Positions 46,118 to 51,787 of a DNA stretch of 64,000 nucleotides are shown here, piece after piece. The stretch covers positions 1 to 64,000 of the forward strand of contig NZ_JABKCA010000007.1 in NCBI RefSeq assembly GCF_013166655.1. The letters are read 5' to 3'. The notes beneath the pieces are model-generated. The model saw only the letters and a program-made list of their open reading frames with translations. It did not search any database and was not told the DNA's origin. Origin of the DNA: Lentimicrobium sp. L6 (GTDB taxonomy: Bacteria; Bacteroidota; Bacteroidia; Bacteroidales; UBA12170). The position numbers were made by a program, and so were the translations under genes. Numbering within the stretch: position 1 is the stretch's first letter; every line of letters begins with the position of its first letter.

Positions 46118-47695
46118 ATGGGCTTAATACAAGAAATAGGAAGAAGAAGGACATTTGCCATTATCTCGCATCCCGATGCTGGAAAAACAACGCTTACTGA
46201 GAAGTTGCTACTTTATGGTGGGGCTATTCAGGTAGCAGGTGCTGTAAAATCTAATAAGATTAAAAAGACAGCGACTTCCGATTTCATGGAGATTGAAAAG
46301 CAAAGAGGTATTTCTGTGGCTACTTCAGTTATGGGATTTGATTATAAAGGCTTCAAAATTAATATTCTTGATACTCCTGGTCATAAAGATTTCCAAGAAG
46401 ATACCTATAGAACCTTAACTGCTGCCGATAGTGTTATAGTTGTTGTAGATGTGGCGAAAGGGGTAGAGCCTCAAACTGAAAAGTTGGTGGAGGTTTGTCG
46501 GATGAGAAAGATCCCTATTATTGTATTTATCAATAAGCTCGATAGACATGGTAAAGATGCATTTGAGTTATTGGACGAGATTGAGCAAAAACTACATATC
46601 AATGTGACTCCTCTGAGTTGGCCTATTAATATGGGTCCTGATTTTAAGGGTGTTTATAGTATCTTTGAAGATAAATTAAACCTTTTTACTCCCAGCAAGC
46701 AATATGTGGAGGAGTATGTTGAAGTGGATGGTTTAGAAGATTCGAAGCTGGATGAAATAGTAGGTAGCTTTGAAGCAGATACTTTAAGGGAAGATATGGA
46801 AATGGTAACTGGGGTTTATCCCAAATTCCAAAGAGAAACCTATTTAGATGGAGATATTTCACCCGTATTTTTTGGTAGTGCATTAAATAATTTTGGTGTA
46901 ATGGAACTGTTAAACTGTTTTGTCGATATTGCTCCCAATCCACTTCCATATGAAACTGAAGAAAGGGTAGTAAAACCAGAGGAGGATAAGTTTACAGGAT
47001 TTGTGTTTAAGATCCATGCTAATCTCGACCCCAATCATCGCGATAGAATTGCTTTTGTTCGTGTGACTTCTGGAGTATTCCGTCGTAATGTTTTCTATAA
47101 GCATGTTCGCCTTGATAAAAAAGTGAGATTTTCGAGTCCAACAGCCTTTATGGCCGAAAAAAAATCGGTAATTGATGAGGTGTACCCTGGTGATATCGTT
47201 GGTTTACATGATACAGGAAGCTTTAAAATTGGTGATAGTCTCACTGAAGGAGAAGTTCTGAATTTCAAAGGAATTCCTAGTTTCTCACCCGAGCTCTTTA
47301 AGTATATTGAGAACGATGATCCTATGAAGTCTAAACAATTGGCCAAAGGTATAGACCAGTTGATGGATGAAGGAGTGGCCCAGCTTTTTGTTGGAAAAAC
47401 TTCTACCAGAAAAATTATTGGAACCGTTGGAGCTTTGCAGTTTGAAGTCATCCAGTATAGATTATTGCATGAGTACGGTGCAAAATGTAGATATGAGCAT
47501 ATCACTTTATATAAAACGGCTTGGATAACCAGCGATAATAAAGCTGCCTTAGATGATTTTGTGAAGAGAAAAGGTTCTAGCTTAGCAGTAGATAAGGAAG
47601 GAAGACTCGTATTTCTGGCTGAATCTCGTTATTCTCTTGACCTAGCGATGAGTAAATATAAAGACATTAACTTTCATTTTACTTCTGAGTTTTAG
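46118..47695 (+). CDS. prfC: Peptide chain release factor 3
   Basis: GTPase that ejects RF1/RF2 from ribosomes. The P-loop [15 protein letters not shown] is at about residues 17-31, the switch-[11 protein letters not shown] near 84-92, and NKLD near 140. Domain II and the C-terminal RF3 domain (about 385-525) follow, ending in [19 protein letters not shown]. The length (525) matches the family. It ends 19 bases from the convergent AAA ATPase gene, with no terminator visible between them. Confidence 0.96.
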
Positions 47696-47714: not shown

Positions 47715-49145
47715 TTAAGTTTCGGGTAGGAATAGGGCATCCATCTTAATATCATTTTGAACTAAACCTAATGAATGTTGGTTTTCTAGGATTCCATAGG
47801 TGGTGAGCATGCATAAGAATACAGATTTTCTAGTAGAGGTTTCAGTTTTAAAAAGACCGATTTTGTTTCTTAGTTCGCTGGCATATTTTTTTGTAATGGT
47901 ATAGGGGTTTATAGAGAATTTTACTTCACATAAATTAATCACCTGATCCCTTCTGTCTATGACTAAATCAATTTGAGCACCATTATCAGAACTCATACTT
48001 CTCCATGATGAAACTTCAGAGTACACACCACTAATTCCTAGTTTTTGTTTAATCTGAGGAATGTGTTGAAGGCAAATTTGCTCATAAGTATAGCCACTCC
48101 AAGCCCGATATTTAGGAGAGTCAATTGTGTTTATCCAATTGTTTTTATCTATTGCATTCGAGTCTTTAATGAATCTCAAATAAAACATTGAATAAAAGTC
48201 AACCAGCTGATATAAGCTATTTCTAAACTTCTTCCCAAAAGGTTGGTATTTTCTAATAAACCCGCTCTGTTCTAGTTCATCTAATACACGAGTTGTACTT
48301 CCTGCATTAGGTAAATCAGATAGTTTTACAATTTCATCTCGGGTTAAGCCCATGGCTTTTTTAGCCATCACCGAAATGATTTTGACATGGTTTTCAGATT
48401 TTTTAAATAATGAACGAAATAAGTTATTGAATTCATTCCTTAGTAGGCCTGTTTCTGAAAAACACACTTCTTCTATATTTTGAAAGGCACTTTTCCCAGC
48501 TTGGATTTCATCCCAATAAAATGGTATCCCTCCTATTGACATATACAATTGAATGATTTGATACCTATCTAATTCTATAGTTCTATTTTTTAAATACTTC
48601 TCACATTCGAATAAATTGAATGGATTTAATTTAATAGTTTTTGTAATTCTATTGTGAAGACCTCCTTTGTTATTGATAAGTTTATTTACCATCCATGAGG
48701 TTGCAGATCCGCAAACAATTAAAATAACATCATTGCGTGCAGAAGCCCAACTATTCCAGAAATGCTCTAATCCTTGAATAAATTTTGAATTTCTGGTATC
48801 AAACCATGGTAATTCATCAATGAATATGACTTTTTTCCCAATTTTGGTTTCCAAAAAATCGATTAGTTGTGCGAAGGCTGTTATCCAGTCTTCTGCTAAA
48901 TTGATGGTTTCATTGTTTTTTTGATGTGTATTTATGGTTAGGTTGAAGTTTGCTAATTGAAGTTTGCTTGAAGTATTAGCTAAACCTGTTATTTGAAAGG
49001 TAAACTTATTCTCAAAAGCAGATCTTATTAGATAGGTTTTGCCAACTCTTCTTCTTCCATAAACAGCAATAAATTCTGACTTATGTGAATGATAAAGCTT
49101 ATCGAGTAAGCTAAGTTCTTTTTCTCTTCCTACAATTTCACCCAT
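47715..49145 (-). CDS. AAA ATPase with C-terminal DUF234/nuclease-like domain
   Basis: Member of the archaeal-ATPase-like group found in variable copy number in Bacteroidota and archaea. Walker A GRRRVGKT is at residues 30-37 and Walker B VIFIDE near 106-111. A winged-helix region follows (about 255-320, MAKKAMGLTRDEIVKLSDLP). The C-terminal domain shows a PD-(D/E)xK-like pattern: D393 in GAQIDLVID, and E407-x-K409 in LCEVKFS. It may act on DNA, but no target is established. Its upstream region carries two matched palindromic repeat pairs. No toxin, methylase or integrase is adjacent. Confidence 0.87.
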   Translation of the reverse strand: MGEIVGREKELSLLDKLYHSHKSEFIAVYGRRRVGKTYLIRSAFENKFTFQITGLANTSSKLQLANFNLTINTHQKNNETINLAEDWITAFAQLIDFLETKIGKKVIFIDELPWFDTRNSKFIQGLEHFWNSWASARNDVILIVCGSATSWMVNKLINNKGGLHNRITKTIKLNPFNLFECEKYLKNRTIELDRYQIIQLYMSIGGIPFYWDEIQAGKSAFQNIEEVCFSETGLLRNEFNNLFRSLFKKSENHVKIISVMAKKAMGLTRDEIVKLSDLPNAGSTTRVLDELEQSGFIRKYQPFGKKFRNSLYQLVDFYSMFYLRFIKDSNAIDKNNWINTIDSPKYRAWSGYTYEQICLQHIPQIKQKLGISGVYSEVSSWRSMSSDNGAQIDLVIDRRDQVINLCEVKFSINPYTITKKYASELRNKIGLFKTETSTRKSVFLCMLTTYGILENQHSLGLVQNDIKMDALFLPET

Positions 49146-49267: not shown

Positions 49268-51727
49268 TTATAAGGGAATTACAAATTTCTCGGCTAGTAA
49301 TCTGCTATCCAATTTTATTTGCAGAACATAAGTTCCTGCTTCTATGTTAAGAGGCTGTTCTGTTTGCGTGAAATTTGCTCTACTAAATGAGGATACTCGT
49401 CTACCCATCATATCGAAAATACTAAATTCAGCTTGTTTGATGTATTCTTCACTATTGATGACTATTGCTTGATTAGCGTAAAATGCTATAATCTTAGCCT
49501 CCTCCATTTCATTGATAAAGTCAGGCTTTTTAGTGGATTTCAGCTTCTTCAAAATCCTAAACCCAGATTCTTCCTCTTCAGCATCTAGTTCATAAATCCA
49601 ACTGGGCATTTCAAATTCATCAATATTGTAGATGCTATCCATAGTTACATCTACTTGTCTTAAAAAGCCAGCATCATCTCCATAATGTCGGCAAACATTC
49701 ACAGCAAAGGCATCTCCATTGTTATTATAATCAGCTATGAATGAATATTTTGTTCCGTTTGCTTTAGAATTACCAGAGTTTAAGGTTCTCATTTCAAGTG
49801 TAGATAAATCAAAACTCACCGTTTTTCTATAAGCAATATCCCACTTCGAATAGTACAACTTCTCAATGAATTCTCCGACTAACAAATGCTCTGCTGTTTT
49901 AACAAAATTGAAATTAATTGAACTATAATCATAACCTGAATAATCACCTTTATAATCTTTCAAATTGGCAACAATACTCATTTCTTGTGACGGTATATTA
50001 AAATTCATCAATACAGCACTATCTGTAGCTCTTGCTTGACAGAGTAGGTTGTTCTCATCCATTAGAAGCATTTGGTCAATTTCTAAATTTCCAAATGGAA
50101 CTAATTCCTCAATTTCGTGACTTGAAATATGGTACCGTTCCATCTTTTGCGTAGAATTATTTGCTCTAATTAAACTAGAACCTGATTCTCTAAGCCATTT
50201 GTTTTTATAATGATAAGGGCTGAATCCTTCTTCAGAAACATATTCTAACTGTTTGGTTTCTGGATTGTACAAGAAGCTTTTTTCAGAAACACCATAATAA
50301 AATCCCAAAACTTTATTTTCAGAAGTAGTAAACACCTGACTTGCCTTTGTTGCATCGGGAAATTCGTCCACTATATTCATTAGCTTTTGATACGCTTTAG
50401 TTTCTGGATTAAACTGATATAATGTACCGCCACCATAATATGGCTCGTAGGTATTACCACCTTTACTTGTAATCCCAATGATTCCGCCATTCTCTAACTG
50501 TGTAAAATCGGTTGGATAAAAGCCCCCATAAACATTGGGGTTCATACTTATTGTTTTCAGGTTTTGATATGTAAAACTTTCATTATCGATTTTATATATA
50601 TGACGGTGAATATTAGTATCTATAGTACTAAACATTCCCAATATGGCTCCATCTGGAGCTAAACTTAATGCGCTTTTGGTTTCAAAATTGCTTTCAGGTA
50701 AATAAGAATATACCAAATCTATTTCATTTGTTAATGTGTTATAAGAAAAAACCCCGCCAAAGTCATGGGCCCCACCATCAACGCTATTCCCAAATATTTT
50801 TTGTTCATCATCAATTACTAAATTCCCAATTAAACTATTTCCAACCTCTTCTGGAATAGGAGCTAAAATTTCGAAAATAGAATTTGATGGGTCATAAGAA
50901 AACATATAAAATCGGTTATCCTTTGGCACTAGTTTTCCTGCACCATATAATTTCCCACCTGAATCCATTACGAATCCTTTTAACCAGTTTATTCCAGAAT
51001 GATATTCTAAGGAATCATTAGTATAGATAAATTCTTCATTATAACTATCTGTATCCAAATCATAGGAATCAATAAAAAAGCTCATCTTTCCATCTATAAC
51101 GAGAGTTGCCATAGAGTATAATTTATGATTATCTGCTATAATTCTTCCAACCCTTGAACGAATCGGCTTTTCTTGTTCAGCAAGCACACTTGTTTCATAG
51201 GAGTTTAAATACACAGCGGTAAGTTGCTCTGTTGCTCCATTTACCCGCCAAGTTAAAAGCTCATTATCATTTATTGGGTTAATGATAGGATTACGAAAGA
51301 ATATATTCAAATCTATTTTTTCATATTCAAGGGTAGATACATTCATTTTATACGAGCGTGTATCCCCTTCATTATTTGCTCTATAATAACAATAGCCCTG
51401 TTGGTCATAAAAAAAACTCCCAAGCAAAGCCCCAGGTGGACTTACTGTCTGATAATCACCTGTTTCAATATTATACTTGAACACCCGTTCTCCTGTGCAA
51501 CCAATATAGTCATTAGTATTCCCAATTTGAGTCATTGGATTACCTCTATATGGAAGAACATATCGCATAAATCGGTGCTGGATTTCGATTTCTTGACTGG
51601 CACTATCAATACTAAATAATATGCCACCATTATCAGAACCTGCGAAATGTTTTACACCCCATATCTCAGTTTGTTAGAAAAGGCTAAGACTTACAATAAA
51701 TAAAACAAAAATGAAGATGCGTTTCAT
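49268..51727 (-). pseudogene. T9SS GloVer-repeat surface protein interrupted by an early stop
   Basis: From the ATG at 51727 the frame reads MKRIFIFVLFIVSLSLF, then TAA (51674-51676), then continues in frame as QTEIWGVKHFAGSDNGGILF for about 800 more codons to the stop at 49268. The part before and after the stop joins as a normal signal peptide (SLF-x-QTEI) plus the first GloVer-type repeat (GSDNGGILFSID). Later repeats include GGAHDFGGVFSYN and YYGGGTLYQFN. The C-terminus (FDMMGRRVSSF ... AGTYVLQIKL) is a T9SS type-A sorting domain. An internal ATG at 51568 could start translation but would give no signal peptide, so export would fail. Either a nonsense mutation or a sequencing error. Confidence 0.85.
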
Positions 51728-51766
51728 GATTTTATTTTTACGTTTGATATATAACGTAAATGTACA

Positions 51767-51787
51767 AATAATAATAATAATAATAAT
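51767..51787. repeat. (AAT)7 microsatellite upstream of the GloVer gene
   Basis: Seven AAT units lie about 40 bases upstream of the ATG at 51727. On the minus strand it sits near where a -33 region would be, next to a near-consensus -7 (TACATTTA). Confidence 0.85.

Follow-up and report, generated by a model that had tools for sequence, protein, structure and literature searches.

A T9SS surface-protein gene with an in-frame stop

The window analyzed here, a 64,000-nucleotide stretch of the Lentimicrobium sp. L6 draft genome, carries on its minus strand a T9SS surface-protein gene interrupted by an in-frame stop codon. Translation from the ATG at 51,727 gives MKRIFIFVLFIVSLSLF*QTEIWGVKHFAG..., the stop being the TAA at 51,676-51,674, codon 18 of the frame. 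Counted from this ATG, codons 1-17 (51,677-51,727, minus strand) encode the n- and h-region of a signal peptide, as indicated by translation and by alignment with the signal peptide of an intact orthologue, MKRILIFVLFITSLSLFSQ. The hydrophobicity score of the signal peptide is 3.3, compared with 2.9 in the orthologue, and lies inside the range of 65 T9SS genes from the same genome. After the TAA, the same frame resumes with QTEIWGVKHFAGSDNGG... and remains open for 801 codons (49,271-51,673), free of a second stop or frameshift, to the terminal TAA at 49,270-49,268. Signal peptidase I of Bacteroidetes as a rule cleaves before Gln (PMC5837995), and the internal TAA is therefore predicted to take the place of the signal peptide's final residue, just ahead of Q19, with cleavage at S|Q. 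Three signal-peptide codons in all, K2, L9 and S18, are a single change away from TAA. S18 is one of them, and the position of the stop therefore needs no special cause.

The frame reaches a T9SS type A C-terminal sorting domain (residues 754-817; 49,277-49,468, minus strand), which matches TIGR04183 at 28.5 bits, above the curated cut-off of 23. The match to Pfam PF18962 is below its cut-off (21.4 vs 27). These results confirm the initial annotation, which had described a TAA at 51,674-51,676 inside a signal peptide starting from the ATG at 51,727, with the frame continuing to a T9SS sorting domain. The same annotation had recognized a first GloVer repeat after the stop. A resemblance to GloVer is present (TIGR03803, residues 298-340, 24.3 bits; 31.7 in the orthologue), but it scores under the curated cut-off of 44, and no hit in the profile search covers the stretch immediately after the stop. 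Thus, the likeness was upheld and the placement of a first repeat was not. An AlphaFold2 model predicted from a two-sequence alignment had a mean pLDDT of 36 and was left out of the evidence. In its same-frame Sec signal peptide, predicted cleavage before Q, long body and C-terminal sorting domain, the gene resembles T9SS type A cargo (TIGR04183/PF18962). It differs in that a stop codon splits the signal peptide from the body: the in-frame Sec signal peptide of the orthologue is stop-free, whereas that of the window gene contains the TAA at codon 18.

Nine bases before the ATG lies an inverted repeat, TTTACGT-N10-ACGTAAA (51,737-51,760, minus strand), with perfect 7-bp arms. It is also present before the orthologue and was found nowhere else in either genome, and its spacer differs by three T/C changes between the species. 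It is possibly a dedicated operator or a weak 5'-UTR hairpin. Between this repeat and nadE, in the presumed promoter region, is an (ATT)7 microsatellite (51,767-51,787, minus strand), which is absent from the sister species and of which none is expected in shuffles of the window. Its length could differ between cells. On the other side of the gene, the ATPase genes between prfC (RF3; 46,118-47,695) and the T9SS gene differ between the two species. The window ATPase (47,715-49,145, minus strand) corresponds to the PADLOC candidate-defence ATPase PDC-S27 (680 bits), and that of the sister species (L002:105-1487, plus strand) is an AAA_15/AAA_21 protein with weak matches to the NsnB, AriA and GajA models. 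This interval could be a small hotspot of defence-like cargo.

The sister-species orthologue and the age of the stop

The genus comprises 11 genomes. Besides that of the window, only one, the Bacteroidales bacterium BB22 MAG (G003), carries an orthologue; none was found in the other nine. This orthologue, on contig JADGDY010000071.1, is syntenic, lying beside nadE, and shares 69% amino-acid identity over its full length. The flanks are collinear with the window from 42.8 kb to 60.2 kb with two exceptions: the stretch from prfC to the T9SS gene, and a gap around 59.5 kb. At codon 18 the orthologue has TCA (serine) in place of TAA, and the nucleotide alignment is ungapped from the same ATG through this site. 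Of the residues preceding the stop, 15/17 are identical, as are 33/35 following it; coding on both sides of the stop is thus not a matter of chance. Taken together, the intact orthologue with its TCA codon, the ungapped alignment and the collinear flanks indicate that the ancestral gene was intact and that a single substitution explains the stop, in agreement with the earlier proposals of a once intact gene and of a one-base change from TCA to TAA.

The initial annotation had also named a sense codon in a close relative as a result that would point to an assembly error. Such a codon was found, but in a different species, which reveals the ancestral state only: a real mutation and an error in this assembly would look the same against it. 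Searches of genome_contigs, which returned the sister MAG only, and of viral_contigs yielded no second assembly of the same species. A sequencing, consensus or strain-mixing error, under which the cells, or most of them, hold a sense codon and an intact gene, is the second most likely reading, though well behind a real mutation. The window comes from a 195-contig draft, the sister species is intact, and the contig coverage of the sister MAG is just 5.1, making low coverage plausible in this assembly group. The undamaged remainder of the gene fits an error as well, and would be equally expected of any functional gene, whether the stop were an error or were read through.

Pairwise comparison of the window gene with the orthologue (NG86, 818 codons) gave a dN of 0.21, a dS of 1.31 and an omega of about 0.16. 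This omega exceeds that of 91% of the pairs (217 of the 232 orthologue pairs with finite dS), and the dN exceeds that of about 89% of all 232 pairs (top 12%). On these comparisons, the gene is fast-evolving yet constrained, with purifying selection acting between the species, and its ranks are consistent with weak constraint. About 4.4% of random substitutions in this sequence would create a stop (transition weight 2). From the count of zero stops besides codon 18, neutral evolution since the mutation is bounded to about 0.028 substitutions per site (95%), a bound that presumes that decay started with the stop, and the same picture would be given by an assembly error or by a functional readthrough gene. 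The bound corresponds, by our arithmetic, to some 4% of a branch whose length is dS/2. The suggestion that the change is recent is therefore supported by this bound and by the lack of any other disabling change in the 801 codons, with the proviso that an assembly error would look identical.

Isolation and decoding of the stop

About 1 Mb each of the window's genome and of G003 was surveyed in stretches. T9SS matches were fetched for the former; 68 of the 150 scored were listed, three were cut by stretch ends and 65 were evaluable. All 65 of these cargo ORFs have a signal peptide, hydrophobic and with a basic start, in an open frame, and systematic stops in signal peptides were thus ruled out (0/65). 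When G003 proteins were compared to the DNA of the window's genome, five of the 232 orthologue pairs met a stop: three were over-extended starts, one was a heavily degraded DoxX-like gene and one was the T9SS gene, the sole clean internal stop on that side. The reverse comparison produced over-extended starts and duplicate matches only. The DoxX-like membrane protein gene (contig 12, L110:12880-13334) contains several stops and a frameshift, and is intact in the sister species. With 65/65 T9SS genes in frame and the 232 pairs otherwise clean but for the DoxX-like gene, the stop stands alone, and the assembly's coding consensus is good. This weighs against a sequencing error, since the change is the only isolated nonsense change in the 232 pairs and is not accompanied by scattered frameshifts; by our estimate, one such event would be expected in the sample only if the error rate were about 1e-4 per base.

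The initial annotation had raised readthrough of the stop, for which we found no positive evidence in the tRNAs, in TAA usage or in the T9SS genes (65/65). Functional readthrough, with the TAA decoded at some rate to give a little full-length exported protein, is in our judgment improbable. The gene does share with readthrough genes a coding frame on either side of a single stop, and the downstream frame is undamaged. The base after the TAA is C, the rarest in this position in the genome (24/340), and +4C has been reported to promote readthrough in yeast (PMC5289835); this context is the sole argument for leakiness. Against this, the stop is UAA, reportedly the stop codon least prone to leakage (PMC5289835), and TAA terminates 340/517 ORFs of at least 200 codons, i.e. 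two thirds. RF-1 domain proteins are present, two of RF1/RF2 length. The gene further differs from readthrough genes in that the orthologue lacks the stop and in that no suppressor tRNA turned up among the tRNAs found. A TTA anticodon occurs in 0/38 tRNAs found in the draft, an incomplete set; this and the use of TAA as the main stop speak against a suppressor tRNA or code change. Recoding is also disfavored, as the stop is neither conserved in the relative, which has TCA, nor recurrent in the other T9SS genes checked, 65/65 of which are uninterrupted. A +1 frameshift at UUC UAA C was rejected because the +1 frame hits a TAA eight codons later. A related reading treats the stop as a genuine allele that is maintained, either polymorphic or with a low rate of readthrough, and that serves as an on/off switch for the export of one surface protein; it seems equally improbable.

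The tRNA search also returned a Leu-TAA/Gly-GCC unit in tandem twice on contig 15 (L034:126-681), Val-TAC pairs with equal 251-base spacing on contigs 5 and 58 (L026:1500-1826 and L028:1501-1827), and a Thr-Tyr-Gly cluster on both contigs 1 and 121.

Every upstream in-frame start runs into the same TAA. Downstream, the next 250 codons were scanned for in-frame ATG, GTG and TTG starts, and none opens a signal-peptide-like N-terminus, the best score being 1.4 compared with at least 2.0 in the T9SS genes of the genome; a later start equipped with an export signal was rejected accordingly. A 766-codon ORF opens at the ATG at 51,568, and restart there or elsewhere downstream would give a product that stays in the cytoplasm and takes on a new role. 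We consider this the least probable of the readings. Apart from the lack of an export signal, conservation relative to the orthologue is among the highest in the residues from the stop to codon 54, and a T9SS sorting domain would have no known use in a cytoplasmic protein.

A probable recent break in a cargo gene

We therefore favor, with fair confidence, a recent one-base nonsense mutation in the final codon of the Sec signal peptide, which, in the sampled strain, silences one dispensable surface protein of the T9SS. Ribosomes starting from the ATG at 51,727 would make a 17-residue hydrophobic peptide and then terminate. Every T9SS effector bears a Sec signal peptide, and Sec export is required (PMC10202324). 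Because no downstream in-frame start carries an export signal, the 800-residue mature part would not enter the periplasm and would have no access to the T9SS. We infer that the cell truly carries the TAA and does not make the protein, and that this loss is tolerated, since the protein would be dispensable: it is fast-evolving, was not found in the other nine congeners and is one of several distantly related proteins of the genome.

The gene matches recent bacterial nonsense pseudogenes in having one stop, an intact frame around it, an intact orthologue in a related species and no further decay; that orthologue is syntenic and has the sense codon TCA at the site. We see no difference from such pseudogenes beyond the position of the stop at the last signal-peptide residue. 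The case is thus most likely an ordinary one of a gene broken not long ago, an assembly error being the less likely reading, and it calls for no new mechanism. For annotation, we note that a gene caller would pick the ATG at 51,568, and the T9SS protein would then be reported as lacking a signal peptide. If real, the stop adds to the examples of dispensable surface proteins lost at the strain level; the genome has at least about 150 T9SS cargo genes.
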